A stretch of DNA of 64,000 nucleotides from Candidatus Nanoarchaeia archaeon. Its GTDB lineage: Archaea; Nanobdellota; Nanobdellia; Woesearchaeales; JANQNE01. This document shows positions 1-20,977 of the stretch, one piece after another (position 1 is the first letter of the stretch; each line of letters begins with the position of its first letter). The position numbers and the translations under genes were made by a program. The stretch spans positions 86,836 through 150,835 of the forward strand of contig JANQNE010000002.1 of the NCBI GenBank assembly GCA_028279725.1, in the 5' to 3' direction. The notes under the pieces are model-generated. The model worked only from the letters and a program-made list of their open reading frames with translations. It was not told where the DNA came from and made no database searches.

Positions 1-1071
1 TCCTGAGATGGATGTTCCGCTCCAGATATCATTGGGATTGGCATCACCGAACTTGAAGAAGCTGACTCCGACAGCGTTTGCCACGTTATCTCCGAGCACT
101 AGATAAGAGATACCATGGTTTAGGTATTCATCATCCTGGTCGTTAACAGGCCAGCGGAAAGCAGTTTTCTTAAGCTCTTCTGCTTTTTTTCTTTCAGCAT
201 CGATGCTGTCTTTCCTTGCCTTATGGACGGCGGCTACCGCATCCCTTATCTTTTTCATATCCATGACGTCAAACAAAGAATCGTTGAGATTCTTGGTCTT
301 GGTAAGGAATGCGATAAAGTTCTCCACCAGAAAATATGAGCGCTGGGCCTGGTTGAGCATAGGCTTAAGCTTCCGGTCGTCTATGGCACGGTCCCTTGCA
401 TAATTTTTTGTTACAGGCTCGCCATTGTAGTTTCTTTCTTCTGAAAGAACTCCGAACTCTTCTATGATGTTCTCTTTTTCACAATGCTGGTTTGCGATGT
501 ACCGGAGATCCACATTGGTTATGCAAAGGTCGTATACCTTGACCGGGTCTTTGTGCATCCTGATCCTGCTCTCGAAGTTCTCGGTCGTGGTAAGCGAGAT
601 GCTGTTGCCAGTCTTTTTGTTGGCGGCGAACAGCTTGTAATATACATTACCTCCTTTCTTGTAATCGCCTTCTTCATAGGTCAGGTCCCAATCTTTGGCG
701 TCGTTATTGAGATCAAGAAACCTAAAAACACCGGCGTTGAATGTGGCGTCTTTTTTGGGAACAGCTTCTTTCTTTTCAGCTGTTTTTTTGCTTGTCTTGA
801 GGATCTGGCCAGGTTCGAGCTTGTCGACAAGGCCATCTTTTACACCTTTCTTGTATTTGCCGTTGACAACTGCGCCGACATCTCCAGATAACGGAAGTTT
901 GTTGATTGCTTGGAGCATTTCGGTCTCTTTTCTGACCTCCTGTTCTGTCGGCATCAGGCGTTCAAGTGCGATGATCCACAGGCTTTCACCAGGCTCCACG
1001 ACATGGACTGAATCGTTGGCATAGATTGCACAGATGCCGATGATCAGCAGGATAGGGAAAAAGTATTTCAC
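1..1071 (-). CDS. Secreted LysM-like protein, C-terminus beyond window edge, GTG start
   Basis: Not in ORF track. Reverse strand reads (GTG)KYFFPILLIIGICAIYANDSVHVVEPGESLWIIALERL...; SD GGAGGAAAAAA just upstream; signal peptide then LysM-like PGESLWIIA motif. Confidence 0.75.
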   Translation of the reverse strand, partial: MKYFFPILLIIGICAIYANDSVHVVEPGESLWIIALERLMPTEQEVRKETEMLQAINKLPLSGDVGAVVNGKYKKGVKDGLVDKLEPGQILKTSKKTAEKKEAVPKKDATFNAGVFRFLDLNNDAKDWDLTYEEGDYKKGGNVYYKLFAANKKTGNSISLTTTENFESRIRMHKDPVKVYDLCITNVDLRYIANQHCEKENIIEEFGVLSEERNYNGEPVTKNYARDRAIDDRKLKPMLNQAQRSYFLVENFIAFLTKTKNLNDSLFDVMDMKKIRDAVAAVHKARKDSIDAERKKAEELKKTAFRWPVNDQDDEYLNHGISYLVLGDNVANAVGVSFFKFGDANPNDIWSGTSISG

Positions 1072-1128
1072 TTTTTTCCTCCTTTGGTTAGGGTTAAGAG
1101 TTGATTGAGAAGAAACTCTTTTTCTTTT

Positions 1129-1350
1129 CTATAGGTCCTCCTTTTTTGAATAAGGGCTTTTGGTTATTTGTTTTAACTTGAGAGCCAAGATAATCGAAAG
1201 AACACCAAATATGAGGCATCCGGCACCAAGCATAAGTGTGATGATTGTGATGTTGATTTTCCCAGAGGTTTCGATAACACAGAAAACAGAAATGATAGTC
1301 AGCAGAATGAACACGGTCTTGCTAATCAGATCATATTTACTCATTATCAT
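1129..1350 (-). CDS. Small two-TM membrane protein
   Basis: ORF with hydrophobic segments, in array context. Confidence 0.6.
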   Translation of the reverse strand: MIMSKYDLISKTVFILLTIISVFCVIETSGKINITIITLMLGAGCLIFGVLSIILALKLKQITKSPYSKKEDL

Positions 1351-1362
1351 CCTCTTTTTAGC

Positions 1363-1749
1363 TTAATTGTTTATAGAGGCCAGTTCTGTAAACACGATGT
1401 CTGTTATTTTTATCACCTCCTCATGATTTTTTACAAAAGTTACTGTTACATTATCGCCGTATCTTCCAAGACATGCTTTTGGGTATTCATCAGCGTCGCA
1501 CACAAGCAGGTAAGGGAAGCGTTTCAACATGATCATGGTCTGATCTTGAGAAGATCCGATCCTTTCGATCTCATCGTTGATCATTACGTTCCTTCCTTCT
1601 GGTGTACTGTGGAAATGACTCAGGATTGCATTTTTTCTGCGGGTTTCTTCTTTGCGATGATTCATGATAGGCCTTATGATAAAGAGCCACAGAAAGAGCG
1701 CAATCGGTATCAGGAAGATTGCATCATACGCCTGGAAGTAGTTAGACAT
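1363..1749 (-). CDS. Membrane-anchored hypothetical protein
   Basis: ORF with N-terminal TM and upstream SD (AAAGGAGG). Confidence 0.65.
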   Translation of the reverse strand: MSNYFQAYDAIFLIPIALFLWLFIIRPIMNHRKEETRRKNAILSHFHSTPEGRNVMINDEIERIGSSQDQTMIMLKRFPYLLVCDADEYPKACLGRYGDNVTVTFVKNHEEVIKITDIVFTELASINN

Positions 1750-1804
1750 AAAGTATAACCTCCTTTAGAGAGTTTAAGGTTTTTATTTTAGTTGATTGAT
1801 TACG

Positions 1805-1852
1805 AAAGGAAAGCTGGGCTCCCACAAGGGAAAGTTATGAGAGCCCAGGTTA
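1805..1852 (-). terminator. Rho-independent-type terminator (GCTGGGCTC...GAGCCCAG)
   Basis: GC-rich inverted repeat directly after stop of 1857-2411. Confidence 0.65.
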
Positions 1853-1856
1853 AGGG

Positions 1857-2411
1857 TTAGGATTCGATATATTCTAAAAAAGGCCTGGAGATATTCTTCA
1901 AAACTCTTAGAGGGTTTGGTCTTTTTTCTCTCACCTTAAGATTAGCTATCTCCACCTTTGAATCTTCTGCCTTTAATCTTACTGTTACGTTATCATGATT
2001 GTTAATCATTTCGCCCTCTATCATCTCACTGCTACATATGAATTCAAGAGGACAGCCGAAAAGCCTTATCTTAACTTCAATATCTTCAGATCTTCTGATA
2101 ATGCCGATGTTTGAGATCTGAGAGTCGAAGCACTCTTCTTCAGTTTTTATTTCTCCATTCCTAAGCTTCATAATACTCGTGTTGAGAAGTGCACTGTGTA
2201 TAATTTTGTTAAAAGCGATAAAAAGGTTAAACACTGCCATTAACCCAAAGAAGAGAACAGCAAAGGACATGGCTAAGGCCGTATTCTTCCTATCATCGAC
2301 ATTTTCTTCTTTTATCTCATCTAAATTTTCTTCTTTTATCTCATCTAAATTTTCTTTTGATATGGATATGCAGATAGCACATATCAAGACGAGGATGAGT
2401 AAGTTTTTCAC
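1857..2411 (-). CDS. Secreted/membrane hypothetical protein
   Basis: ORF with signal peptide, short ENLDEIKEENLDEIKEEN repeat and TM. Confidence 0.6.
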   Translation of the reverse strand: MKNLLILVLICAICISISKENLDEIKEENLDEIKEENVDDRKNTALAMSFAVLFFGLMAVFNLFIAFNKIIHSALLNTSIMKLRNGEIKTEEECFDSQISNIGIIRRSEDIEVKIRLFGCPLEFICSSEMIEGEMINNHDNVTVRLKAEDSKVEIANLKVREKRPNPLRVLKNISRPFLEYIES

Positions 2412-2587
2412 TTTATCATCTCCTTATCTTATGGATATTTTTATTTCCACCAGTTTGAGAGTCTCCAGTTCTCAAAAGGTCCAAAATGATATTTATATTG
2501 ATCTATATTTCATTTGTTATTTTCAAATCTAAAGGACTCTTGATTTACCATAATTTCTCTCCACTGGAAGAGTCCGTTTTTTAGGAA

Positions 2588-2800
2588 TTACTTCTTTTTG
2601 AAGTGTTTTTTCATTACCTCAATGATTATTATGAGTAAACAAACAACCAAGGAAGCACCTAGAATTGTGATACTAATCACCAAATGATACTCTGAATTAG
2701 CTAGGGAGCCCTTGATTCCTCCGATCAAAACACAACCTAGAAGAATTACAAAAAGGCATAATCCAATCGTGACACTTATTCTTATTATTTTATCTTTCAC
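2588..2800 (-). CDS. Small membrane protein, paralog of 3721-3933
   Basis: ORF; shares ANSEYH and C-terminal HFKKK with 3721-3933. Confidence 0.65.
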   Translation of the reverse strand: MKDKIIRISVTIGLCLFVILLGCVLIGGIKGSLANSEYHLVISITILGASLVVCLLIIIIEVMKKHFKKK

Positions 2801-3021
2801 TTCTCCTCCTTTCTTTTATTAGTGTCTTGTCTATTTTTATGAACATCCCATGCACTTATCTTATACATAATGACAAAGCAAATCAACATCATTCCTGATC
2901 CAATTATGAGTATAGTCTTTCCTGAAACTTCTACCATCATAAGGATTAATGCTAGGAGAAATAAGATAAGCAATCCGATCATGCTGTACTTGAAGTATCG
3001 ATAAAATTCTTTATCTTTCAT
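2797..3021 (-). CDS. Small membrane protein
   Basis: Overlaps downstream start by 4 nt (translational coupling); two TMs. Confidence 0.65.
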   Translation of the reverse strand: MKDKEFYRYFKYSMIGLLILFLLALILMMVEVSGKTILIIGSGMMLICFVIMYKISAWDVHKNRQDTNKRKEEK

Positions 3022-3083
3022 TTTAACTCCTTTCTTGTTAAAGACCCTACCCCCCCAATTGACTGCTGTTCAACTGATCTTTC

Positions 3084-3590
3084 TTATATTTTTGAATTTG
3101 TTTTTTTCTTAGGTTTGGGATCAGTTATATTAAAGTAAATGCCCCCAACTGTTTGTGATGCTTCCTTGTCTATCAGGAAAATCCCTCTTACAGAATCGCC
3201 TTTTTCGATCGGAGTGATAAGAAGCCCTCTTTTGTCTCCATCAGCATATCTTCCGATCTCAAAATCTTCCAGGCCAGTGTCATGAGAAAATCCAGAGCAG
3301 TTGCGATAATCTATCATAGTTGCATAAACTTTTTTTATTCCAAACCATTCGATGACATAGATGCTGCCAATCTTAAGGGTGACAGTATCTCCTGATTTGA
3401 TGTTGCAACTCTTCCAGCTTTCTGGCAGTTGTTTCTTGGTGACATCATAGTTGCCCTTTCCAAGATTGGGGATGTCTTTTTCACTGATCTCTTCTTTGCC
3501 GTTAAAGATATACAGCTGCACTCCTGTCGCGCACAATCCAAGCGATATGATAAGCAGGACAGCTGCGATAAATAAAACAGATGTTTTCAT
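3084..3590 (-). CDS. Secreted/membrane-anchored hypothetical protein
   Basis: ORF with N-terminal signal/TM. Confidence 0.65.
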   Translation of the reverse strand: MKTSVLFIAAVLLIISLGLCATGVQLYIFNGKEEISEKDIPNLGKGNYDVTKKQLPESWKSCNIKSGDTVTLKIGSIYVIEWFGIKKVYATMIDYRNCSGFSHDTGLEDFEIGRYADGDKRGLLITPIEKGDSVRGIFLIDKEASQTVGGIYFNITDPKPKKKTNSKI

Positions 3591-3720
3591 TTTAACTCCT
3601 TTTTTAATTATTCTTTTTGAAATCTATATTTCACTCGCTTTCGCGATGCTTATTTTCAAATCTAAAGGACTCTCGATTTACCATAATTTCTCTCCACTGG
3701 AAGAGTCCGTTTTTTAGGAA

Positions 3721-3933
3721 TTACTTCTTTTTGAAGTGTGTTTTTATCATGGCATAAATCACCATGGCTATTGAGACAACCGCAGATGCGAACAGAAGTA
3801 TGAGCATGAATGCCATATGATACTCTGAATTAGCCAGAGCGTCTTTAGTCATATTTATCGCATATCCGACTAAAGAAACTACGAAGGAACACAATCCAAA
3901 TAAAACAACTATTCGGGTTATCTTGTTTTTCAC
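3721..3933 (-). CDS. Small membrane protein, paralog of 2588-2800
   Basis: ORF; similarity to 2588-2800 and shared 3' flank. Confidence 0.65.
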   Translation of the reverse strand: MKNKITRIVVLFGLCSFVVSLVGYAINMTKDALANSEYHMAFMLILLFASAVVSIAMVIYAMIKTHFKKK

Positions 3934-3947
3934 TTCACCTCCTTTCT

Positions 3948-4145
3948 TTATTCATCTAAAAGATTGTTTTCTTTCAGAACATCTCTGATGATTCCTAGAT
4001 TTCTAAAGAAGATTATCATGCAAGCTATCGTTAGAACTACGTTCGTTATGGACAAAGTATTGATCCTTGAGTCTGCCCCTAAAAAGAAAGACATTAGGCA
4101 GCATCCTAGCAAACTGAGAATAATCTTTTCTAGTACTCTTTTCAT
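3948..4145 (-). CDS. Small membrane protein
   Basis: ORF; SD AAAGGAGGTGAA upstream; coupled to 4142-4630. Confidence 0.65.
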   Translation of the reverse strand: MKRVLEKIILSLLGCCLMSFFLGADSRINTLSITNVVLTIACMIIFFRNLGIIRDVLKENNLLDE

Positions 4146-4630
4146 TTCACCTCCTTTCCTTTATCTTTAAGAAGAACCTCCAGCTTTGTATCCAGTTCTC
4201 CGGTTTTATTATAGAAAATACTGAATGAGAATATAAGGAAGATAAAAAGTGCTGAGAGACCCACAACTCCAACGAATAGGACCAGAGTCTCTGAGATAGC
4301 CATTATGAATATAATTCCTGCGCCAAAAGAAATAAACAACGACCAAATAGCTTGATGACCTATATTATCGATTAGCTTTACCAATTCCTTGTCTTCTCCT
4401 TCTTTATCCTTCAAAAGACCCTTATCTTCTAGGTCTCTTTGTAGAAATGAAAGCTTCTCAGAGAATGTTCCCATAGCCATTGAAAGACCGAGGCCTGTCG
4501 GAAGCATAAATATAACTATCCAAGGTTCTGCCACTTTAAAGAAGATTAATGTTCCGATCATAGCTACAATAAAGGAAAATATAGAGATAAAGCAATTCGA
4601 AATACTTAGAGATTTTATCTTTTCTTTCAT
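4142..4630 (-). CDS. Multi-TM membrane protein
   Basis: ORF; SD AAAGGAGGTGAA; 4-nt overlaps with both neighbours. Confidence 0.7.
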   Translation of the reverse strand: MKEKIKSLSISNCFISIFSFIVAMIGTLIFFKVAEPWIVIFMLPTGLGLSMAMGTFSEKLSFLQRDLEDKGLLKDKEGEDKELVKLIDNIGHQAIWSLFISFGAGIIFIMAISETLVLFVGVVGLSALFIFLIFSFSIFYNKTGELDTKLEVLLKDKGKEVK

Positions 4631-4998
4631 TTCACCTCCTTTCTTTTTTCTTTAATTTTTTTCATATGATGCTTTAGTATTGCGATGAACACAAGTATCG
4701 AATAAAATACGGTAAGTCCAGATACTATGATAAGGCTTATTGCGTATTTGTAATCTGACTCATCTATTTTGCTGATGATTATATCAGTTACAGTATAGGT
4801 AAGCCAAATAATGATAATAAAAATACTGATCATACATATTATTCTAAATACTTTTTCGTTCATTTTAACATTCTTGCGAATCATCTTTTCTATACCACTT
4901 CGATCAATTATCTTTTTCACGAGATCTATTAAGAAAAGTACTCCAACTACAAGAAAGATGCTTATGATAAACCAAACTAACAGTTTAGGATCCATCAA
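4627..4998 (-). CDS. Multi-TM membrane protein
   Basis: ORF with several hydrophobic segments; coupled downstream. Confidence 0.7.
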   Translation of the reverse strand: MMDPKLLVWFIISIFLVVGVLFLIDLVKKIIDRSGIEKMIRKNVKMNEKVFRIICMISIFIIIIWLTYTVTDIIISKIDESDYKYAISLIIVSGLTVFYSILVFIAILKHHMKKIKEKRKEVK

Positions 4999-5023
4999 TC
5001 TCCTTTCATCAAAGTTAAAAACA

Positions 5024-5071
5024 AAGCTGGGCTCTCAAGTGAGATCAGTCAGCAAGAGAGCCCAGCTTTTG
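5024..5071 (-). terminator. Hairpin terminator (GCTGGGCTCTC...GAGAGCCCAGC)
   Basis: Long GC-rich inverted repeat flanked by A/T tracts. Confidence 0.6.
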
Positions 5072-5112
5072 TAAGAAGGTTAGATTGGGTAGGAGTATCT
5101 AACCTTCAGATG

Positions 5113-5631
5113 TTAGCTGTGGATGGTCTCGGGCCTCCAGAAGTTCGCCGGATTGTTCTGCGCATTGGCCGAGATTGTCACACAGTTATCGGATCGTTCG
5201 CCGGACCAGAACTGTGAGGGAAGAGTGTTAACGGATTGCCGATTGTTTGCCGCCGAATTCGTCATGGTACTGGAATGCAATTCATTGCACCGGAGTTCCA
5301 TGTTATTTTCGAAATTGGCGTTTGCATAACGCACATCGTGCAAGACCATGTAAAGGTAGGTGGTCTGATGAACCCCCAATTCTTGCGCCGGTTTTGCGTT
5401 ATTCTGACATTCCGAGTTTTCCGCCTTATTCTTTACAGCCGCCTGATATGCGTTCAATCGCGTCAGGATCAGTTCGGTATTGGCCTTTTTGTTCATAAGA
5501 CGATGGCCGGTTTTCGAGGTTAACGTGTTTTCGGTCTGGACGGCAACGGTTTCGATGCCATCGGTCGGGATCGCTTCGGCAGACATAAACATGAATGCCA
5601 GGGCGACCAGAAGGAGAAAGTATTTCATCAT
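5113..5631 (-). CDS. Secreted hypothetical protein
   Basis: Clear signal peptide MMKYFLLLVALAFMFMSAEA. Confidence 0.65.
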   Translation of the reverse strand: MMKYFLLLVALAFMFMSAEAIPTDGIETVAVQTENTLTSKTGHRLMNKKANTELILTRLNAYQAAVKNKAENSECQNNAKPAQELGVHQTTYLYMVLHDVRYANANFENNMELRCNELHSSTMTNSAANNRQSVNTLPSQFWSGERSDNCVTISANAQNNPANFWRPETIHS

Positions 5632-5663
5632 ACTCCTTTGTTAAGGTTTAAAGTTAAAAGGTA

Positions 5664-5706
5664 TTAATCACTAGCAGGTTTTTTGAATAGGTTATCACCT
5701 CCTTTC
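5664..5706. repeat. 43-bp exact direct repeat, copy 1
   Basis: ttaatcactagcaggttttttgaataggttatcacctcctttc, identical to 7607-7649. Confidence 0.9.
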
Positions 5707-5739
5707 AAAAACAAGCTAAAGCTTAAGGATAACTTTAGG

Positions 5740-6531
5740 TTAATGGTTAATCTTTTTTGATTCAAACTTCTTGGTCCGGTCGTGCACTTCTTGTGCATAG
5801 TCCTGAGTCATACCTAGGCTGACCAGGTTTTTCACGCTGTAATCATAGTTAACCAGGATGTTCTTGCAGAACCTTTCTTCGTCGCCAAAGAAGTAATCTG
5901 CGTCTTCATCTGCGAGAAACATCTTGAGGTCACTACGGATAAGCTTGATCGGACCGACGGCCTTGTTCAGTGCCCTTGCAGTCCCCCATTCTTTTTTCTT
6001 GATGAGCTCGATGTAAGTGCTGTATGCATCGCTGGCCTTAACTGTGTATTTCTTGAATATCTTTGAATCTTTTCTGACCTTGAATACACTCAGCACATCA
6101 ACAGTCCGGACCTTTTTCCCACTAAGCTCTGAAAGCCTGGAGATCTCATCCTCGTTTACTCCAAACTTCTTGAGGAGAGACCTGAGCTTCTTGTGGATGT
6201 CCTTACTGCTGCTTTCTTTGGAAAGACCGAACTCAGCCAGGGGATCAACCTCCTCTTCCTCGATCGTTTCGTCTTCCATATCACCTGGGTCTTCTTCCAC
6301 CTCTTCTATGATTGTCAGTTCAGGATCATGGCTGACGGGTTCCTCTGGGGTTTTTACTGTGACAGGAACCGTATCCTGCGAGGAATCAGAGACTTGCTCG
6401 GTTTTTGCCTGAGCATCTCCTTCAGCAATGCGGGATGTATACCAGCTTACAAATTCTGAAAGCGAGAAAATTGCAATTGCCATAAGGAGTGCAATCGGGA
6501 ACAGTATCCCAAATTTTTCCTTAAACATCAA
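5740..6531 (-). CDS. Single-TM protein with acidic linker
   Basis: N-terminal TM, Glu/Asp-rich linker, C-terminal globular region. Confidence 0.7.
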   Translation of the reverse strand: MMFKEKFGILFPIALLMAIAIFSLSEFVSWYTSRIAEGDAQAKTEQVSDSSQDTVPVTVKTPEEPVSHDPELTIIEEVEEDPGDMEDETIEEEEVDPLAEFGLSKESSSKDIHKKLRSLLKKFGVNEDEISRLSELSGKKVRTVDVLSVFKVRKDSKIFKKYTVKASDAYSTYIELIKKKEWGTARALNKAVGPIKLIRSDLKMFLADEDADYFFGDEERFCKNILVNYDYSVKNLVSLGMTQDYAQEVHDRTKKFESKKINH

Positions 6532-6551
6532 TCACCTCCTTTCTTTTAGGA

Positions 6552-6602
6552 AAGACCCGGCTCTCGCGGGTTAGTCTAGCTAAGATCATGAGAGCCAGGT
6601 TT
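6552..6602 (-). terminator. Hairpin terminator
   Basis: CCCGGCTCTCGCGGG / GAGAGCCAGG inverted repeat. Confidence 0.45.
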
Positions 6603-6614
6603 TGTTTAAGGATT

Positions 6615-7565
6615 TTAGGACTGCTGTTCTTCTGCGCCGGAGGCAACCGGTTCTTTGGCACCAGGCTGGGCTTTGCTGGCTTTTGTCGCTGCCATCATCT
6701 GGGTCATGATGTCGTTCATCCCACCAGGACCTGGATTCAGGAAGATGGCGGTTGAGCCGGAGTGTGAGCCGATCTCTTTCATGGTGTCATAATGCTGGGT
6801 CAGCATGATAGTGTTCATCACAGTCTGGGCATCAGCACCTTCGACAGCACCTTTCAGATCCTCGACGGATTTCTTCAGGCCTTTGGCGATGGCTTCCCTC
6901 TGACCTGCAATACCTTGGCCTTGGAGAATCTTGGATTCTTTTTCAGCCTCAGCTTCCAGCACCATCTTGATCTTTTTGCCTTCACCTTCTTCCCTGGCAG
7001 CGTCCTTAAGCCTTTTCTGGGCGTTGATCTCGTTCATCGCATCGACCACTTTTTCATCTGGCCTTACATTGTTGATAAGCGAATTTACGATATCATACCC
7101 ATAATCTGACATGGTGTTTGTCAAGGTCTCTTTTATGGACTTTGCGATGTCGTCCTTTTCTGTGAAGACCTTATCCAGCTCAAGTTTCGGGACCTTGGCC
7201 AGAACCACATCAAAGACATAGGATTTGATCTGGCCGGCAGGATCAGTAAATTTATAGTGCGCTTCCATGATCTTGTCTTCTTTGATCAGAAACTGGATCG
7301 CTACCAGGATCTCAACAAAGACATTGTCCTGTGTTTTTGTCTGTACCGGAACTTCCAGTTCCTGAAGCCGCAGGGAGATCGGTTCAGAAGCCCATTCTAT
7401 CCAGGGTGTTTTCCAGTTAAGGCCTGGTTTCATGATCTTCTTGAATTCACCGAAACGTTCAACAACAAGTGCGGTCTTTTGGTTGACTACATTGATGGCA
7501 AGGATCAGTGAAATCAGCGCGAAAAGACCGATTACTGAAAAGATGACGATGAGGGTAGTACTCAT
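6615..7565 (-). CDS. SPFH/Band 7 (stomatin/HIR-like) membrane protein
   Basis: N-terminal TM; VVERFGEFKKIMKPGLNWKTPWIEW and EAEAEKESKILQGQGIAGQREAIAKGL typical of SPFH proteins. Confidence 0.85.
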   Translation of the reverse strand: MSTTLIVIFSVIGLFALISLILAINVVNQKTALVVERFGEFKKIMKPGLNWKTPWIEWASEPISLRLQELEVPVQTKTQDNVFVEILVAIQFLIKEDKIMEAHYKFTDPAGQIKSYVFDVVLAKVPKLELDKVFTEKDDIAKSIKETLTNTMSDYGYDIVNSLINNVRPDEKVVDAMNEINAQKRLKDAAREEGEGKKIKMVLEAEAEKESKILQGQGIAGQREAIAKGLKKSVEDLKGAVEGADAQTVMNTIMLTQHYDTMKEIGSHSGSTAIFLNPGPGGMNDIMTQMMAATKASKAQPGAKEPVASGAEEQQS

Positions 7566-7606
7566 ACGCTGTACTCCTTCCTTTAAGTTAAAATGATAAG
7601 GGATTG

Positions 7607-13076: not shown

Positions 13077-13081
13077 GGAGG

Positions 13082-13954
13082 TTAGGCAGCGGTTGCTGAT
13101 TTGTTGGAAGGTTGGAACATTTTCATGAATTCCACCGGTATCGGGAGGATCATGGTCGTCGTCTTTTCCGCGGAGACATCGGTGATCATCTGCATGAAGC
13201 GAAGAAGCATGGAGTTGGAATCGCCTGCCATCTTCTTACTTGCTTCGGAGAGCTTTTCTGCTGCTTCGAGCTCGCCGTCGGCCAGAATCTTTCTTGATTT
13301 TCTTTCTTTTTCAGATTCTGCTTCCTTGGCCATGGCCCGTTTCATGCCTTCATCGGGTTCGATGTCCTTGAGCTCGATGTTTTCGATCTTGATGCCCCAC
13401 TCTTTTGTGTCTTTTTCAACCTTGTTCTGGATGTTGTTTGCAGATTCCTCTCTCTTTTTCAGGGCGTCATCAAGGGTCGATTCTCCGATCACGTTTTTTA
13501 TCGTGGTCTGTGCGAGATTAGCGACAGAAACGTCCACTTTTTCTACGTTGTTGATGGCTTTTCCTGCGTCAACTATCTTGTAGAAGACAACGCCGCTGAC
13601 TCTTAACGGAACACCATCACTTGTGATTGCGTTCTGATCCGGAATCTCATAACTTTTTACCCTGACATCAATCTCTATGGCAGATTGTATGATGGGGAAG
13701 TAATGCCTTAGACCAGGATCCATTATACTCGAGAATTTTCCCAGAGTATATTTGACGCCGCGATCCGTCTGATGGATAATGGTGAAGCCGGCCAGGATAT
13801 ATAAGGCTATGGCCCCTATGCAGACCCATTTAATCACGCCGAACAGTGTTATGCTGTTGAAAAATTCTTTGACTGCATCACCTTCTTCTCCTGCGAAAGC
13901 GACTGAGACAAACATCAGAACGATGATTGCCAGGAAAGGTAGTAATTTTTTCAT
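13082..13954 (-). CDS. SPFH/Band 7 stomatin/slipin-like protein
   Basis: Signal/TM, GVKYTLGKFSSIMDPGLRHYFPIIQSAIEIDVRVKSYEIP, ERKSRKILADGELEAAEKLSEA. Confidence 0.88.
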   Translation of the reverse strand: MKKLLPFLAIIVLMFVSVAFAGEEGDAVKEFFNSITLFGVIKWVCIGAIALYILAGFTIIHQTDRGVKYTLGKFSSIMDPGLRHYFPIIQSAIEIDVRVKSYEIPDQNAITSDGVPLRVSGVVFYKIVDAGKAINNVEKVDVSVANLAQTTIKNVIGESTLDDALKKREESANNIQNKVEKDTKEWGIKIENIELKDIEPDEGMKRAMAKEAESEKERKSRKILADGELEAAEKLSEASKKMAGDSNSMLLRFMQMITDVSAEKTTTMILPIPVEFMKMFQPSNKSATAA

Positions 13955-14062
13955 AATAACTCCTTTAAAGTTAATGGTTGATGTGTTCTGAGAAAAGTTT
14001 TTTTGTCTCCTTTTTGTTAAGGGTTTTAGTTTTAACTTGTATATTAAGTTGGTTGATTTAGA

Positions 14063-14106
14063 AACAGCCAGACCCTTATCAGGTTAGGACAAGAGTCCGG
14101 CTCGCG
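14063..14106 (-). terminator. Terminator, recurrent family
   Basis: GCCAGACCCTTATCAGGTTAGGACAAGAGTCCGGC. Confidence 0.65.
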
Positions 14107-14108
14107 GG

Positions 14109-14267
14109 TTAAACGCCGAAAGCGAAGCAGTTGTAGCAGGCTGATTTCCGTTTTCTGTTGCTTTCTTTGAGTGCAGATTCTCTTTTTTTCATGCAGGCTT
14201 TTTTGCCGGGAACACAATTACAGGTAGCGGGTCTGCCGGGGAATTTTTTCTTCTTTTTATTTTTCAT
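14109..14267 (-). CDS. Small Cys-rich basic protein, 52 aa
   Basis: Below ORF-track cutoff: MKNKKKKKFPGRPATCNCVPGKKACMKKRESALKESNRKRKSACYNCFAFGV; followed by terminator. Confidence 0.6.
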   Translation of the reverse strand: MKNKKKKKFPGRPATCNCVPGKKACMKKRESALKESNRKRKSACYNCFAFGV

Positions 14268-14377
14268 GGATGCTCACTCCTACTGCTTATTTTGGACCTT
14301 TCTGGTTCTTTTCCAATGTAGAGAATGCTGGACAACAGAACCAAAGTAATTGCCGTGAGAAGTCTGAACAGTTTCAA
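14264..14377 (-). CDS. 37-aa signal/TM peptide, TTG start
   Basis: SD AAAGGAGG then TTG; (M)KLFRLLTAITLVLLSSILYIGKEPERSKISSRSEHP; overlaps next gene start by 4 nt. Confidence 0.55.
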   Translation of the reverse strand: MKLFRLLTAITLVLLSSILYIGKEPERSKISSRSEHP

Positions 14378-14406
14378 AATACCTCCTTTTAGTTAAAAGC
14401 TTGTAA

Positions 14407-14859
14407 CTAATGTTTTCTTAGAACCTCGATTACAGTTGAATTTAACTCACCCATATCGTCTGTGAGGATCAGGCTTTTTTTAATCCTATCTTCCTTAACC
14501 CCTTTTTTGATCAGGTAAGCGGTGCATCTGTGTAACCTTTCCTTGCTTTTGAAGCTTATGCTTTCAGACCTCACTTCAAACAGCTTTAGGAAAAGGTTTC
14601 CCTTATCTTTTTTCTTGAAAAAATTAGCAACTTTGTCAAGTCTTCTTCTATTTTCTTCATTAGGGGAAATTTTGTCTTTTTCGAACCATATGGTCTCTCT
14701 CATAACACCCATTACTGTGCCTTTGGGAATGAATTCCTGTACGCTTGTCACTTCGGAATTTTGGTCTGTGTTAGGGGATTTATTTTTGAAATTGGAAAAT
14801 GCTATGACCAACATTGTAACTGTGACGAGAATAAAGGCAAAAAGGGAAATTTTATACAT
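14407..14859 (-). CDS. Membrane-anchored protein, possibly OmpA-like C-terminal fold
   Basis: N-terminal TM; pattern TIWFEKDK...RRRLDKVANFF...KERLHRCTAYLIKKGVKEDRI resembles OmpA-like layout. Confidence 0.5.
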   Translation of the reverse strand: MYKISLFAFILVTVTMLVIAFSNFKNKSPNTDQNSEVTSVQEFIPKGTVMGVMRETIWFEKDKISPNEENRRRLDKVANFFKKKDKGNLFLKLFEVRSESISFKSKERLHRCTAYLIKKGVKEDRIKKSLILTDDMGELNSTVIEVLRKH

Positions 14860-14877
14860 AAGGTTTCTCCTTTTTAG

Positions 14878-15117
14878 TTAATGTTTTAACATAATGAAAG
14901 CCTGGATGATCCAGTAGATTATCAGGCTGACTAAGATTAAATGATATGCACCCCAGAAGAATGCGTGCTTTTTGCTCTTGAACCAGATCCTCTTTTCCTT
15001 TCCGAGTTTTTTTGGGATTATGACGAAGAACATAGCTGCATTGAAAATATGGAATGCAAGGATAAGGAACCCCAGCAGGATATAGTTCATGATCATCTTG
15101 TTGATTAATTCTTCCAA
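14878..15117 (-). CDS. Small membrane protein
   Basis: Two TM segments. Confidence 0.6.
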   Translation of the reverse strand: MEELINKMIMNYILLGFLILAFHIFNAAMFFVIIPKKLGKEKRIWFKSKKHAFFWGAYHLILVSLIIYWIIQAFIMLKH

Positions 15118-15131
15118 ATTTTTCCTCCTTT

Positions 15132-15251
15132 TTAAAAGATTAATTTAAGGATACCTTTGATTACAAAGTACCAGAAAAGTATACAGGCAATGACAGCTGC
15201 GATCAGCCTTTTCTTGTAATTTTTGATCAATTTTTCGATCCATTCCATCAT
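15132..15251 (-). CDS. 39-aa single-TM peptide
   Basis: MMEWIEKLIKNYKKRLIAAVIACILFWYFVIKGILKLIF; fits array spacing. Confidence 0.45.
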   Translation of the reverse strand: MMEWIEKLIKNYKKRLIAAVIACILFWYFVIKGILKLIF

Positions 15252-15266
15252 AACATTACTCTAGGT

Positions 15267-15779
15267 TTAGTTTGTATCAATCAACAGGTTATATTCTCCT
15301 TTCCTGATGACCTTTGCTCCTGGGAATGCCTTGAGGAATTTCTTGTAGATGATTGTCTGTCCTTCTATTTCCATATGTTTTACCATCCACTGAAGTATTG
15401 CCACTTCCATGTCATCAATCGTTTTTTTAGGGTTACAGTAGTTGATCCAGCATTCCCTGTTTGTCTTGAAGTTCATGACATTCCAGGCAAAGTCAAAGGG
15501 AAAGACGAAATGACAGTCTTTTTTTGCCTTCAGTTCAGCAAGATCTTTATCTCTGCAGTCATCTATGAAGAAATCACCTTTGCCTTTTTCTTTTATTTTC
15601 CTTTCAAAGAAAAGTGCAGGACCGATGAGGCTGTCACCTTTGTAGATATTCATCTTTCCTGCATAGCTGGCAGCGTCAGGTCCGATGAAAGAATCTGCGT
15701 CGGTCGAATCTATGGTGATGGTGTAGGCGAAGGCCTGCCAGAAAGCGAGACAGAGGATTGTGAGAATAACGTTTTTCAT
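15267..15779 (-). CDS. Secreted protein, paralog of 11913-12416
   Basis: Signal peptide; shared C-terminal motif. Confidence 0.7.
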   Translation of the reverse strand: MKNVILTILCLAFWQAFAYTITIDSTDADSFIGPDAASYAGKMNIYKGDSLIGPALFFERKIKEKGKGDFFIDDCRDKDLAELKAKKDCHFVFPFDFAWNVMNFKTNRECWINYCNPKKTIDDMEVAILQWMVKHMEIEGQTIIYKKFLKAFPGAKVIRKGEYNLLIDTN

Positions 15780-15798
15780 AAAATTTCTCCTTATTAAG

Positions 15799-16476
15799 TT
15801 ATATGTTTATTTCTTTTTCCGGTTTTTTCTGTTCCTGCTGTTTCCTGAACTCTTCTTCAAGGCCTTTTTCCAGATCCCTGAAGAAATCATTTAGGAGCTC
15901 CAAGGTTTCATTTTCAATCTGCTGTCTCTGAACTTCCCTTTCTATGAGTTCCTTGTTATGGTTGAGGACTTTTATGACCTTATCCTGGAGCTGAACATGT
16001 CTTTCATAGAGGTTCTTGTAGTCTTTCAGTGTCTGGGTCAGATCTTTTGCCATCTTTATGGTTTTGTTCTCTGCGCTGACTGTCCTTTCACCGAAGCTTT
16101 TGTATCCTTCCATGAGCTTGTCGATTACTTCTTTGAATCCAATGACAGATTGGGTCAGCTGGATGTTTTCTTCCTTTACAATCAGGAACTCTTTGCCGAA
16201 ATCTCTATCTTTGATCCTTATATCTATGCTGTCTTCCAGATTCTTCAGGCTTTTTTTGACTTCAACATCAATCTGTCTGTTTTCTTCTGCTAGCTGATAG
16301 ATCCTTGTTTCAGAATTATGGTAGAGGGAGATTCCAGATATCAAGGCGGTGATTAATAAGATTATTGCCCTGACTTTTAATCTTTTCTCCACCACTATAA
16401 TGATGAAGGAACTCAAGGTAAAGAATACGCAGAACATGAACAAGGTATTACTAAGTGTAAGTCCAAACATTGTCAC
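15799..16476 (-). CDS. Membrane-anchored coiled-coil protein
   Basis: N-terminal TMs then long heptad-rich region. Confidence 0.7.
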   Translation of the reverse strand: MTMFGLTLSNTLFMFCVFFTLSSFIIIVVEKRLKVRAIILLITALISGISLYHNSETRIYQLAEENRQIDVEVKKSLKNLEDSIDIRIKDRDFGKEFLIVKEENIQLTQSVIGFKEVIDKLMEGYKSFGERTVSAENKTIKMAKDLTQTLKDYKNLYERHVQLQDKVIKVLNHNKELIEREVQRQQIENETLELLNDFFRDLEKGLEEEFRKQQEQKKPEKEINI

Positions 16477-16527
16477 TCCTTTGTTAAATTATTTTTTTCT
16501 ATATGTAAAGTTGTTATTTCTGAAATA

Positions 16528-16572
16528 AAAACCCCTGCTGGATGATTTCAATGAAGTGAGGGGTTTGTAATG
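16528..16572 (-). terminator. Hairpin terminator (AACCCCT...AGGGGTT)
   Basis: Inverted repeat after stop of 16580-16831. Confidence 0.5.
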
Positions 16573-16579
16573 GAAGGGA

Positions 16580-16831
16580 TTATTTTTTTCTTTTAAGGAT
16601 CTTTGAGAATGAAAGTATGCTTCCCATGACTAAGATGTAGATACAGAAAATCCATGTAAATAAAGGGAGTTTGCTTACTGCTCTTCCGGTGACGTTGCTT
16701 ACTGCTGTCTGGAACGAGGTGTCGTTATACATCATATCTGATCCGATTGCGATAAAGGCAAGGACAGTCCATGTTAATATGATGGCTACTGTTGAGATTA
16801 TAGCGAGATGCACTTTTGTTGAGATCTTCAT
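16580..16831 (-). CDS. Small membrane protein
   Basis: Two TMs. Confidence 0.6.
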   Translation of the reverse strand: MKISTKVHLAIISTVAIILTWTVLAFIAIGSDMMYNDTSFQTAVSNVTGRAVSKLPLFTWIFCIYILVMGSILSFSKILKRKK

Positions 16832-16895
16832 CTTCAGTCCTTTTTCAAGTTAAATGATTTTTCCCTGTGTTACTCCTTTCGTTTACAGGGAGATG

Positions 16896-17399
16896 TTATT
16901 CAACTGTGTAAACTCCTTTTTCATTCCTGATCATTGTCGTGGAATCTCCGTCGTGCTTTTCTATGAATTCTTTGGCCTTGATATTGTCTATCTTTGCAAT
17001 GATCATTCCCAGAACGATCACAGTGAAGAGGCTCCAGTCTCCGATAAGGATCAGGGCGAAGGTTGTAATGAGATTTGTGATAAAGCTGAACTTCTTTTTG
17101 ATTATTTTTAGTACCGAGTTTGGCTTTGCGATATACTTTCTGGCAGACTTTATCCTGCTTTCAGTGTCTTTGCTGTCTTTTGGCTCTGTGGTGAAAGTTA
17201 TGAACAGAGAGAAAAAGATAACAACTCCTATCCACATTATTACCTCGAAGATAATGAGAAGGTTGTTTGCGTATGAGGCAAAGTCTTCATAATGGGGAAC
17301 TGGATGGTGGTTTTTGATAACAGTCAGTACGATCCATGCCCTGCATGCATAGATGAAGATAGAACCCAGGGTGCCGATGAGAAACCTTTTTAGTTTCAT
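16896..17399 (-). CDS. Polytopic membrane protein
   Basis: Several TM segments. Confidence 0.65.
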   Translation of the reverse strand: MKLKRFLIGTLGSIFIYACRAWIVLTVIKNHHPVPHYEDFASYANNLLIIFEVIMWIGVVIFFSLFITFTTEPKDSKDTESRIKSARKYIAKPNSVLKIIKKKFSFITNLITTFALILIGDWSLFTVIVLGMIIAKIDNIKAKEFIEKHDGDSTTMIRNEKGVYTVE

Positions 17400-17459
17400 G
17401 AAATTTCCTTTCGTTAAAAATGATTTTTTGTTTTATATAAATAGTTATTATTTCCGAAA

Positions 17460-17507
17460 GAAAACTCCTGTGTGTCATTTGTACTGCGCAAGTTGAGGAG
17501 TTGTAAA
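17460..17507 (-). terminator. Hairpin terminator (AACTCCT...AGGAGTT)
   Basis: Inverted repeat downstream of 17514-17945. Confidence 0.45.
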
Positions 17508-17513
17508 GTGGTT

Positions 17514-17945
17514 TTAGATGCCTGTCCCTTCATCCTTGTATTTTTCTTTTGATCTGTCAATCGCAGGTATTGTGGGATAAGGGACCACATAGAAGAAAGC
17601 TATGATGGCCATAACTGTCTTCATTTTTCTGATATCGAGATTGTTCCAGATAAAGAGAGTTATCATGATCGTAAAGATCATCAAGAAGAGTGAAGCTTTG
17701 AATCTGACCAAAAAAGTTAGTATTTCACTGTGACTTTTTGAGAGATTTTTCTTCTTTCTCTCTTCTTCTTCATTCCAGCTGTTAAGTCTGAAGTAAACAG
17801 CAAGGGCCATTGTTCCACTGAGGAAGATTATCATGGAAGTCCAACCGACAATCTGTCCGGTGGCACCTTTGATGAAATTTCCGGTTATGCCACAAACAAC
17901 AGCTATGAGGATAATGATAACATATACTTTTGTCATCTTTTTCAT
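17514..17945 (-). CDS. Polytopic membrane protein
   Basis: Several TMs; SD AAAAGGAGTT. Confidence 0.65.
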   Translation of the reverse strand: MKKMTKVYVIIILIAVVCGITGNFIKGATGQIVGWTSMIIFLSGTMALAVYFRLNSWNEEEERKKKNLSKSHSEILTFLVRFKASLFLMIFTIMITLFIWNNLDIRKMKTVMAIIAFFYVVPYPTIPAIDRSKEKYKDEGTGI

Positions 17946-17959
17946 CTAACTCCTTTTCA

Positions 17960-18016
17960 TTAAAGATCAAACAAGAAACTGAGAAATAAAGCTAAAACTA
18001 AAATCCATCCTACCAT
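17960..18016 (-). CDS. 18-aa hydrophobic micropeptide MVGWILVLALFLSFLFDL
   Basis: SD AAAAGGAG 4 nt before ATG; a frameshifted near-copy lies at ~18293-18374. Confidence 0.35.
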   Translation of the reverse strand: MVGWILVLALFLSFLFDL

Positions 18017-18041
18017 AAAACTCCTTTTGTTAAAAGATGGT

Positions 18042-18284
18042 TTATATGCCTGTCTCTTGGTTTTCTTCTTTTTTTGGTTTTGGTATCTGTCTTAGGATGA
18101 AGATGCTCCCTGGGATGATGAGTGCTAAGCTGATCAGAAGCCCCATAAACAAAAGAGGCAAGGGTACTTGTTCAGTGGGTTCAAGTGCGCCTGCATAGAT
18201 CATGTGCATATAGATGAGTTGTATGCCCATACTACCTGCTATGATGCAAAAAATTATCATCCCTACTTTTTTTCTTTTACTCAT
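18042..18284 (-). CDS. Small membrane protein
   Basis: Two TMs. Confidence 0.6.
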   Translation of the reverse strand: MSKRKKVGMIIFCIIAGSMGIQLIYMHMIYAGALEPTEQVPLPLLFMGLLISLALIIPGSIFILRQIPKPKKEENQETGI

Positions 18285-18410
18285 AAGTATTCCTTTTCAT
18301 TAAATGTCAAACAGGAAACTGAGAAATAAAGTTAAAACCAAATCCATTCTACCATAAAACTCCTTTTGTTAAATTAATCATCAACCTATATATTAAGTTG
18401 TTATTTCCGA

Positions 18411-18456
18411 AACAAAAAGCCGGACCCATATTGGGCTAGAACATGAGTCCGGCTTG
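18411..18456 (-). terminator. Terminator, recurrent family
   Basis: AAAGCCGGACCCATATTGGGCTAGAACATGAGTCCGGCTT. Confidence 0.75.
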
Positions 18457-18463
18457 GGGCGAG

Positions 18464-19507
18464 TTAGACTGTTGCTGTTTGCTGCTGTTCTTCGATCTCT
18501 TTGATTTCCTGCAGCCTTTTCTGGAGCTTTTCTTTTTCCTTCTGAAGCTTTGACTTCTTTGCTTCTTCTCTTTCTCTTGCTTCTGCTTCGTTGATGTCCT
18601 GCAGTTTTTTTCCGATCGATTCCGAAAGTGTTTCCTTTAATATAACGCCCTTTTTCCTGGCATCTCCTTTTATTAAGCCAAGTTTTGTTATCTCTACCAT
18701 AACCAAAAGTGCTGCAAATGTTACTATGATTACCCAAAAGAATAAGGGGGTGGAAAGTACCAGGACAATGCAGAAAACTACTGTAATGATGGAGATGATC
18801 GGTGATCGGTTAATCATCTCTGAAAGGATCCTGAACGGAATCTTGAATATTGCTTTTAGTTTTTTTAGTAAGTTCTTTGGCATGATCAGGATCAGAGCAG
18901 TTTCCAGAATGATCTTTTCTATAGACCTCACCATCATCATGGTCTCTCTCCATTCCCTCTTTAGGTTCTTCCTGATGCTGTTTTTTGTTTTAGGATCCAT
19001 TGATAATCCGTCAGAGAACCTTCTGAGCATATTCAGGATCTTGTTGATGCACAGCATTAGAGTCAACAGGTAAATCAGAGGGAAGAGAGCTACCAGCGCT
19101 TTTTCAATCGGATTTTTCATGGAGTAGTAAAAGCTAATGTATGATTCCTTGTAGCTGATTATCCGGTTCCTGAACCTGAGCCATGAAATATACAGCCCAT
19201 CATTTTTTCTTTTACTCCATTCCTTTCTTAGCTGCTTTCTGACTGTCTTGTTAAGCTCAAAGTCTTTGTCCCTTAGAGAATAACATTCTCTGCTTCTTTT
19301 AATGCGCTCAGCTTTCAATGAGTCGATCTTTTTAAGGTTAAGAGCGCGTTTTGCTTTTTTGAGCTGTGGATCGTATTCATCTTTAGTCCATTTTTCAAAA
19401 GCAAGACAACGTTCAACGGTTTCTTGGACATCTGCTTCGGTGAAATTTATTTTTCCGAACACAAGTGTACTGCTTATGAGAATGGTAAGGATGATGAAAA
19501 GTTTCAT
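18464..19507 (-). CDS. Secreted/membrane protein with coiled coils
   Basis: Signal peptide, TM pairs, C-terminal coiled coil. Confidence 0.7.
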   Translation of the reverse strand: MKLFIILTILISSTLVFGKINFTEADVQETVERCLAFEKWTKDEYDPQLKKAKRALNLKKIDSLKAERIKRSRECYSLRDKDFELNKTVRKQLRKEWSKRKNDGLYISWLRFRNRIISYKESYISFYYSMKNPIEKALVALFPLIYLLTLMLCINKILNMLRRFSDGLSMDPKTKNSIRKNLKREWRETMMMVRSIEKIILETALILIMPKNLLKKLKAIFKIPFRILSEMINRSPIISIITVVFCIVLVLSTPLFFWVIIVTFAALLVMVEITKLGLIKGDARKKGVILKETLSESIGKKLQDINEAEAREREEAKKSKLQKEKEKLQKRLQEIKEIEEQQQTATV

Positions 19508-19552
19508 TATGAAACTCCCTGGTTTAAATTTATGGTTTGTCTTTGAATGAAT

Positions 19553-20104
19553 TTACCGATTTATCTTTGCGAGGGCCTGCAGGATCCTTTCTTTTTTCCA
19601 AGGGTTAATAATGACTGCAGATTTTAGTTCTTCTGTGATAGAAGAAATAACTTGTTTTGTCAGTTCCTCTTTCTTGTGCATCCTGTCGATCCTTCGCTTT
19701 GCTGAGCTGAACAGAAGTCCTAATTTGTCTAGACTGTCTGAGAGTGATTTTTCTGACTCCTCAAGGCTGCATTTTGAATTACGTAATTCATTTTCTATAC
19801 GTTTTGCTCTCAGAAGAACCAATGCCCAGATTATGTTACTTAAAATAAAGACCATCATTGAAACAGCTATGGTCTTCTCTAATGTGTTTCCTGAAATTAT
19901 GAACCAAGTAGGTGTACCAAAACCAAATAATAGGATCATCCAGATGATGTCTTTATCAGTAGTTCTTATAGTTACAAGAAACAAGATCACTCTTGCGATC
20001 CACAAAGTTGTTTTTCCAATTCTGATGTGATCTGTGAAGATGAAAGAAAGGCACAGGATAATTGTGCAGATGACAGAGATGAGATATTTCTTTTCAGATC
20101 TCAT
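19553..20104 (-). CDS. Polytopic membrane protein with C-terminal coiled coil
   Basis: TM segments then heptad region. Confidence 0.65.
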   Translation of the reverse strand: MRSEKKYLISVICTIILCLSFIFTDHIRIGKTTLWIARVILFLVTIRTTDKDIIWMILLFGFGTPTWFIISGNTLEKTIAVSMMVFILSNIIWALVLLRAKRIENELRNSKCSLEESEKSLSDSLDKLGLLFSSAKRRIDRMHKKEELTKQVISSITEELKSAVIINPWKKERILQALAKINR

Positions 20105-20131
20105 TGAAAACTCCTTAATGAGTCTGGTTAA

Positions 20132-20178
20132 AAAGAAGCCGGACCCTTATTGGGTTAGGACAAGAGTCCGGCTTTTAC
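20132..20178 (-). terminator. Terminator, recurrent family
   Basis: AAGCCGGACCCTTATTGGGTTAGGACAAGAGTCCGGCTTTT. Confidence 0.8.
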
Positions 20179-20196
20179 CCCGAACAGAAAAGCAGG

Positions 20197-20460
20197 TTAG
20201 AGTACAGACTTGAGCAACGAACCGAAAAGGTCAATGATCGCTGATACTATCCATCTTCCAGCACCTAATGCTATCTCTAATACATCATCAAATGTGATGA
20301 TCTCAAAGAAGATGAGAGCACCTGCAATGACGATGGCCAGGATGATGAGACCTATAAGAGCGTATAATACGTTCTTAAAAGTCTTTACAAGGACAACCAA
20401 CACGATAATCCCTACAACAATGCCGACTAGAATAAGTATGGCAGTTCCAGCATCCATCAT
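20197..20460 (-). CDS. Small membrane protein
   Basis: Highly hydrophobic; SD AAAGGAGG; 4-nt overlap upstream. Confidence 0.6.
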   Translation of the reverse strand: MMDAGTAILILVGIVVGIIVLVVLVKTFKNVLYALIGLIILAIVIAGALIFFEIITFDDVLEIALGAGRWIVSAIIDLFGSLLKSVL

Positions 20461-20669
20461 ATACCTCCTTTTTTGTTATTATCTTTGTTTTTGTAGAGCC
20501 AGAGAACACCAACTCCGAAAGCGACGAAGGAAGCAACAGCAGTCATTACACATGCTATTGTAGCAACTTCGCCGAGTTCGAAGAACCGAGATCTTGGCAG
20601 AGAACCCATGATCACGAAAAGAACAAGGTTCAATGCGCAGAGAATCTCTACGAATTTTGTTGTTTTCAT
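20457..20669 (-). CDS. Small membrane protein
   Basis: Two TMs; SD AAAGGAGG. Confidence 0.6.
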   Translation of the reverse strand: MKTTKFVEILCALNLVLFVIMGSLPRSRFFELGEVATIACVMTAVASFVAFGVGVLWLYKNKDNNKKGGI

Positions 20670-20680
20670 ATATACCTCCT

Positions 20681-20977
20681 TTATAATATACGTTTGAATA
20701 AAAATATCAAAGCTAAGATCGAAAGCAGAGTTGCTAATCCAAGCGGACCAAGAAATGCATCTTTCTGGGTCTTGTGCCGGAAAGTGAAAACTCCGATCCA
20801 GATACCAAGAAAACCACCAAGAAAACCAAGTATGTAAAAGGTTTTTTCAGGGATGCGGGGAAGTTTCGCTTTTGCAAAGATCTTGTCAAAAGCCATGAGA
20901 GTGAGACCGATCAGATTTGCAATAACAAAGTAAGCGATGACCTGGTGAGCTGTGATTAGCTGAATTAATGTATCCAT
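20681..20977 (-). CDS. DUF1294-like membrane protein
   Basis: KAKLPRIPEKTFYILGFLGGFLGIWIGVFTFRHKTQKDAFLGPLG resembles DUF1294. Confidence 0.75.
   Translation of the reverse strand: MDTLIQLITAHQVIAYFVIANLIGLTLMAFDKIFAKAKLPRIPEKTFYILGFLGGFLGIWIGVFTFRHKTQKDAFLGPLGLATLLSILALIFLFKRIL

Follow-up and report, generated by a model that had tools for sequence, protein, structure and literature searches.

A 32-kb run of about 55 small genes in the chromosome of a Candidatus Nanoarchaeia archaeon of the order Woesearchaeales belongs, we conclude with high confidence, to an element written in two styles. A DNA-translocase module carrying archaeal expression signals is joined to a hypervariable cargo whose signals are of bacterial type; the pair is inserted in an archaeal chromosome and recurs in other genomes of the order. 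The stretch of DNA that we analyzed, referred to below as the window, comprises 64,000 nucleotides (positions 86836-150835 of contig C1) of a metagenome-derived genome of 1.42 Mb (labelled G000), and the array occupies its left end. We further infer, at chances that we would set somewhat below even, that a mobile DNA-transfer element carries the array as its cargo and delivers it outward to bacteria.

The array lies entirely on the minus strand and extends from C1 ~75,850, some 11 kb beyond the left window edge, to window position ~21,195. Forty-one minus-strand open reading frames (ORFs) of at least 37 aa fill window 1129-20977, and one ORF of 458 aa crosses the left window edge; five 4-nt overlaps couple neighboring genes, and the remaining ORFs each have a Shine-Dalgarno (SD) site of their own. 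Gene calls follow our own heuristics, membrane and signal segments were predicted by hydropathy, and the genomes compared are metagenome assemblies. A transmembrane (TM) or signal segment is present in 91% of 53 ORFs from the whole array versus 28-35% of native ORFs, and such a segment falls inside the first 20 residues in 87% versus 12-16%. A fourth-order Markov log-odds contrast places composition edges at C1 75,910 and 108,030 (window 21,195); these breakpoints, together with codon distance, delimit a cargo island at C1 ~75,850-108,030, of which window 1-21195 (minus strand) is the part inside the window. The codon distance between array and native genes is 0.085, compared with a null of 0.032 +/- 0.009 and a null maximum of 0.064. 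By codon distance, by breakpoints at both edges, and by the bacterial and mobile clade to which one of its SPFH proteins (SPFH-1) belongs, the array is foreign in composition. An earlier note on the window had described a one-direction array of small genes for membrane and secreted proteins, coupled by 4-nt overlaps or equipped with their own SD sites and interrupted by no core gene, and our analysis bears out each of these points. The run that it placed at window 1-20977 is likewise present, but it is truncated by the window and larger than described, because the ORFs continue leftward to C1 ~75,850 (window about -10,985). In the leftward part, at C1:76,000-80,400 (L005:16000-20000, L006:1-400), tiny ORFs of ~12-25 codons have near-perfect SD sites, and a strong hairpin with a T-run comes after each of them; they possibly encode leader peptides or secreted peptides of very small size.

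The host genome carries an archaeal 16S ribosomal RNA (rRNA) gene, and its order, which comprises many families, is probably of the DPANN type. Both flanks of the insertion are archaeal: L11, NusG, and thermosome genes lie to the left, a GluRS gene and genes for elongation factors to the right. In members of three other families (G005, G031, and G059, the right-flank gene of the last identified via its neighbors), the series L11-NusG-FKBP-kinase-thermosome continues straight into the right-flank region, with order and orientation as in this genome, which makes these loci an empty site. The right-flank gene itself (window 21678-22379, plus strand) is present in 48 of 60 members of the order. 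The gap between the thermosome and right-flank genes is 28 bp in G005, up to a few kb among relatives, and 36.5 kb here, where a small module (C1:72,071-75,628) and the array fill it. These comparisons show an insertion into an ancestrally joined archaeal locus. No att, target-site, or border repeats were found at the island ends.

The module holds two genes with archaeal signals, both inside the insertion and left of the window: a HerA/CedD-like DNA-translocase ATPase (C1:72902-74899) and a charged, coiled partner of ~150 aa (C1:75176-75628). The ATPase matches Pfam DUF87 (2.6e-07 here and 2.2e-08 for the G046 copy) and has a Walker A and a DEAH Walker B motif, with GMSGSGKT and VDEAHNIF invariant, as in the HerA/VirB4-like superfamily. 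Its best NCBIfam match is CedD (4e-20), at 72 bits versus a cut-off of 600, and an orthologue matches CedB (2e-8) at 33 bits versus a cut-off of 700; because these scores lie well below the family cut-offs, we regard the ATPase as a DNA-translocase relative and not as a proven Ced member.

A profile built from four orthologues of the ATPase detects it in 34 of 353 members of the order, with strong matches in about 27, and the bacterial-style genes accompany it. Downstream of the ATPase, the density of strong-SD ORFs is 0.54 per kb on its own strand, compared with 0.07 on the other strand and with 0.049 per kb per strand in control DNA totalling 288 kb; 48 were observed versus 4.3 expected. At least one same-strand strong-SD small gene lies within 4 kb in 22 of 28 readable loci versus 18% of control windows, and at least two such genes are present in 12 of the 28 versus 3.2%. 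Long runs of strong-SD genes, many of which encode a TM or signal segment, are found in G036 (29 genes, including by sequence an SPFH/flotillin-like protein and a MacB-like exporter), G252 (23), G157 (30, on both sides of the ATPase), and G370 (16), and the cargo exceeds native DNA by 2-6 points of GC content in six of six arrays. Protein clustering across loci found only the ATPase (15 families) and the ~150-aa partner (9) to be widely conserved, the cargo being unrelated between loci except for SPFH and one kinase-like protein. The earlier note had proposed looking for the same gene order elsewhere; none was conserved in any genome searchable here, and the expression style and the neighboring ATPase module recur instead, these alone being conserved across loci. 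The kinase-like protein (HGDLKPANI) lies at the distal array end in G036 (G036:C17:20520-22385) and has relatives in the G187 and G207 loci. Another cargo array (L097:4566-4638, in G046:C88) contains a transfer RNA (tRNA) gene with a UCA anticodon, potentially reading UGA.

The expression signals of cargo and module differ in kind. Array genes have strong SD sites (GAAAGGAGG), short leaders, and hairpin terminators, and almost never an archaeal promoter; GAAAGGAGG fits the CCUCCUUUC tail that is common in bacteria. A comparison of array and native ORF sets by SD is biased, as array ORFs were chosen partly by SD; the leader count, the strong-SD density, and the strong-SD window tests instead apply a single criterion to array and control sets. 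The leader TTAAC-N(0-5)-AAAGGAG has 18 copies in the genome, 14 of them inside the array. Terminator-like hairpins on the coding strand number 4.0 per 10 kb in the array versus 0.3-1.65 in the flanks, and the hairpin family AAGCCRGACYCTT..AAGGGTCYGGCTT is, in this genome, confined to the array. To our knowledge, it is established that archaeal RNA polymerase does not use intrinsic hairpin terminators. Archaeal B recognition element (BRE)/TATA boxes (GAAANNTTTAWA, at most one mismatch, at most 150 nt upstream) precede 14 of 23 partner genes, 18 of 77 native genes, and 3 of 160 cargo genes (Fisher tests: module versus cargo, p 1.5e-12; native versus cargo, 2e-7), a contrast that would weaken, though not vanish, if restricted to transcription-unit starts. 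TATA-like hexamers in cargo leaders cluster 20-30 nt upstream of the SD site (17 versus about 6 expected). This spacing resembles that of a bacterial -10 element more than that of an archaeal box, from which transcription would start at the SD itself.

The SD site further extends to GAAAGGAG, the base before AAAGGAG being G in 47 of 116 cargo genes versus an 11% background and in 15 of 18 in the G252 cargo; the G370 cargo has only A there. The archaeal 16S genes here read CCTCC-TTTT or -TTTA, and the extra G of GAAAGGAG, the base before AAAGGAG, is left unmatched by this gene sequence. Because these are gene sequences, from which the mature 3' end of the archaeal rRNA may differ, and because G370 shows only A, we treat SD length as supportive, not decisive. 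Two further sequence features lie near the module promoters. A perfect 22-nt palindrome, TTATTTTCTATATAGAAAATAA, the longest in about 350 kb examined, occupies C1:75,753-75,774, between the last terminator of the array and the archaeal promoter of the module, and TTTTCCRY..TTTTCCRS repeats, perhaps a conserved regulator site, stand just upstream of the partner-gene BRE/TATA in G036, G187, G368, and G370.

The cargo proteins themselves offer few recognizable domains. Two SPFH proteins, SPFH-1 (316 aa, window 6615-7565, Pfam Band_7 3.9e-27) and SPFH-2 (290 aa, 13082-13954, 5.7e-39), pass the PF01145 cut-off of 23.6 bits with 95.9 and 134.4 bits, and a 98-aa protein at 20681-20977 matches DUF1294 (Pfam 3.1e-18). 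The earlier note had named all three correctly; its LysM-like protein finds no Pfam or NCBIfam support among array proteins, and its possible OmpA-like protein (150 aa, 14407-14859) has a weak C-terminal NCBIfam match of 0.0043, below the cut-off. The protein that crosses the left edge is a secreted one of 458 aa (C1:86530-87906), whose C-terminal part is at window 1-1071. It has no Pfam or NCBIfam match, a LysM-like N terminus and barrel-like C terminus that are seen by eye only, and an AlphaFold model, made without an alignment, with a predicted local distance difference test (pLDDT) score of 31, which is uninformative; the alignment-free predictions for two cargo proteins, this one included, gave unusable pLDDT values of 31 and 37. 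The note's reading of the locus as a membrane-microdomain or surface assembly is supported at most in part: the array does have a membrane and surface character, but the SPFH genes belong to the hypervariable cargo and do not form an assembly core. SPFH-1 shares 46.5% identity with a plasmid protein of Legionella fallonii and at most 29% with anything in 194 archaea of the same phylum, and members of its clade sit on plasmids and viral contigs; no array surrounds the SPFH relatives on viral contigs. No phage or plasmid homologues of the non-SPFH cargo proteins were found. The array terminator pattern, searched by DNA in viral collections, was absent from viral contigs; in genome collections it gave three single matches (Omnitrophica, Psychrobacter, and Halobacillus), and the one inspected, in Omnitrophica, had no comparable array around it.

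Three paralogue groups besides SPFH are detectable in the array, and one pair gives a glimpse of how the cargo changes. Two 70-aa proteins with two TM segments (2588-2800 and 3721-3933; 49% amino acid identity) are saturated at synonymous sites (dS 1.26) with a ratio of nonsynonymous to synonymous divergence (dN/dS) of 0.33, while the 71-nt terminator units behind them (window 2517-2587 and 3650-3720) are 98.6% identical. The proteins are therefore constrained and the terminator units copied or recombined, which is a plausible route for cassette turnover. A 123-aa protein with three TM segments (4627-4998) is a weak paralogue of the first member of this pair; the secreted proteins at 11913-12416 (167 aa) and 15267-15779 (170 aa) are paralogues, as are a 148-aa TM protein at 9875-10321 and that of C1:84250-84690 (E 2e-5).

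Under the explanation that we favor, the archaeal cell would express the translocase module from its archaeal signals, and the translocase would transfer the element, or its cargo strand, to a bacterial cell in contact with the archaeon. Bacterial machinery there would express the cargo proteins, the membrane and secreted products would remodel the envelope of the partner, and recombination between the near-identical terminator repeats would drive cassette turnover. More tentatively still, the symbiotic archaea of the order may inject DNA into bacterial partners through a CedD-like translocase so that cassettes written for bacterial expression remodel the bacterial envelope, in the manner of the transfer DNA (T-DNA) of Agrobacterium, which is destined for plants.

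Several observations weigh against outward delivery. Strong-SD genes are missing downstream of the ATPase in six of the 28 loci, and the array is upstream of the module here, downstream in most other genomes, and on both sides in G157. Terminator enrichment in the arrays of other genomes, with only single examples seen, is not significant under strict criteria. AAAGGAGG can also pair with archaeal rRNA, as judged from the 16S gene sequence. No relaxase, pilus, VirB6/CedA-like pore, or border repeat was recognized in a cargo most of whose proteins have no family match, and neither a bacterial recipient nor a bacterial copy of the cargo was found in bacterial genomes, which were scanned by DNA pattern only. 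The direction of transfer may also be inward, because CedD and CedB act in DNA import.

The same pairing of AAAGGAGG with the archaeal 16S gene sequence favors one rival explanation, in which the cargo is expressed in the archaeon as a fast-evolving surface, defense, or symbiosis locus of a mobile element, using strong SD sites and promoters that we do not recognize. A high membrane content suits a surface locus, and the module is itself archaeal. We nonetheless consider this explanation unlikely in view of the promoter counts (3/160 in cargo versus 18/77 in native genes and 14/23 in the module), the hairpin terminators foreign to archaeal RNA polymerase, and the extra G of GAAAGGAG that the hosts' 16S sequence leaves unmatched.

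Capture reverses the traffic: a Ced-like ATPase would import bacterial plasmid, phage, or chromosomal DNA from a partner or prey, this DNA would integrate close to the import locus, and the cargo would be passive, recent, and decaying. CedD and CedB are indeed importers, needed for DNA import in Saccharolobus (PMC11868833), and the plasmid and viral setting of the SPFH-1 clade, the unameliorated codon use, the variability of the cargo between loci, and the possibly truncated ORF at the right island edge also speak for capture. Random uptake, however, leaves unexplained why 91% of the proteins are membrane or secreted, why metabolic and replication genes are almost missing, why the genes keep one strand with respect to the ATPase (0.54 versus 0.07 ORFs per kb), and why paralogues show purifying selection (dN/dS 0.33). 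We regard capture as rather improbable.

Very unlikely, in our estimation, is a remnant of the early region of a large bacterial phage or plasmid that is unlinked to the ATPase. In its favor are the likeness of small one-strand genes with strong SD sites and terminators to phage early regions, the occurrence of SPFH proteins in jumbo phages, and the UCA-anticodon tRNA of the other cargo array. No structural, replication, or integrase gene was recognized among the proteins tested, however, and the array style recurs beside orthologous ATPases in many families. A PHROGs search of 10 array proteins returned only SPFH (phrog_200) and weak matches, with no structural, packaging, or integrase gene, and no integrase is near, which speaks against a prophage. 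An assembly or binning chimera, to which the abrupt compositional junctions, the metagenomic origin of the genome, and the lack of att or target-site repeats might point, is hardly credible, because the archaeal genes on both flanks are neighbors in three other families, so that a chimera would take two separate misjoins at a single ancestral junction, and because the same arrangement is found in independent genomes.

The element that we favor, one delivering its cargo to bacteria, shares features with several known systems and differs from each. Like the T-DNA of the Agrobacterium Ti plasmid, it sets transfer genes in the style of the donor beside cargo in the style of another domain, as the BRE/TATA counts (14/23 versus 3/160) and the GAAAGGAG SD attest; unlike T-DNA, it would have an archaeal donor and an inferred bacterial recipient, it has no homology to T-DNA, and neither a relaxase nor border repeats nor a complete type IV secretion system was recognized; the likeness is one of logic and not of descent. 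With the Ced system of Sulfolobales (CedA, CedA1, CedB, and CedD) it shares an ATPase of the same HerA/VirB4-like class, for which CedD is the best family match, but Ced imports chromosomal DNA whereas this element carries variable cargo, and its ATPase scores 72 bits where the family cut-off is 600. No CedA pore or CedA1 pilin appeared among the cargo proteins scanned, and no search dedicated to them was run. Archaeal and bacterial integrons and cassette arrays (PMC9668308) likewise combine small unknown genes in one direction, intergenic hairpins, and cross-domain transfer, but the hairpins here are terminators, with no attC signature and no recombinase nearby. An integron or a cluster of attC sites lacking an integrase (CALIN) is rejected by paired RYYYAAC ... 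GTTRRRY attC sites, of which there is 1 per strand versus 2.8 in shuffles, and an integron integrase near the array by Phage_integrase matches that occur only on contig C4. Phage early and host-takeover modules also have short unidirectional genes, strong SD sites, and terminators, whereas this array is mostly membrane and secreted, has no recognized phage hallmark, and is tied to an archaeal ATPase module. Operons for SPFH/flotillin microdomains contain Band-7 proteins, as does the array, in which the SPFH genes are instead single members of a variable cargo with no conserved microdomain operon. The papers that we could search contain no description of such an element.

The remaining genes of the array inside the window, all on the minus strand, are mostly small membrane proteins. 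Those with two TM segments are at 1129-1350 (73 aa), 2797-3021 (74 aa, 4-nt overlap), 3948-4145 (65 aa), 10351-10581 (76 aa), 10874-11170 (98 aa), 14878-15117 (79 aa), 16580-16831 (83 aa), 18042-18284 (80 aa), 20197-20460 (87 aa), and 20457-20669 (70 aa, 4-nt overlap), and a larger one, with a coiled coil in addition, is at 15799-16476 (225 aa). Three TM segments are predicted at 4142-4630 (162 aa, 4-nt overlap), 16896-17399 (167 aa), and 19553-20104 (183 aa), four at 17514-17945 (143 aa), and multiple segments at 11183-11797 (204 aa) and 18464-19507 (347 aa). Proteins with one TM segment are encoded at 1363-1749 (128 aa), 5740-6531 (263 aa, acidic), and 8175-9086 (303 aa, for which homology searches found no relatives), and short TM proteins at 7865-8062 (65 aa), 9651-9878 (75 aa), 10610-10774 (54 aa), and 15132-15251 (39 aa). 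Secreted proteins are predicted at 3084-3590 (168 aa), 5113-5631 (172 aa), and 9109-9537 (142 aa), a signal peptide plus TM segment at 1857-2411 (184 aa), and a signal, coiled coil, and TM segment at 12460-12966 (168 aa). A 37-aa ORF (14264-14377) and a possible 67-aa ORF with a weak SD site (7607-7810) complete the set. An open, C-terminal-like fragment without a database match (...AREKPELNAFLVGKEEFDIETSIIDLMKKH*, 21074-21175) may represent a gene cut short where the island ends. Terminator hairpins, also on the minus strand, are located at 20130-20174 (AAGCCGGACTCTT..AAGGGTCCGGCTT followed by a T-run), 18411-18455 (followed by a TTTCGGAAATAACAACTTAATATATAG leader), 14059-14103, 13028-13072, 11862-11899, 10818-10856, 8126-8162, 5027-5066, and 1814-1848. 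Elsewhere in the window, a protein kinase domain of eukaryote-like type (Pfam Pkinase 2.7e-24) is found in the 776-aa protein encoded at 28492-30822, and a tRNA gene cluster at 42050-42382 includes two genes of 99 and 121 nt, missed by ARAGORN, that probably contain introns.

For most small symbiotic archaeal lineages, we know of neither the partners nor the means of acting on them. The promoter and terminator style of the cargo makes the idea of bacterial expression directly testable, and, if the cargo is expressed in bacteria, bacteria would be identified as partners of small symbiotic archaea. Even were the direction of transfer reversed, a conserved archaeal ATPase coupled in many families to hypervariable bacterial-style cargo would constitute, within the literature that we searched, an undescribed class of element. 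Bacterial expression of the cargo would also make the element a DNA-based effector system operating across the domain boundary and a route for gene flow from archaea to bacteria.

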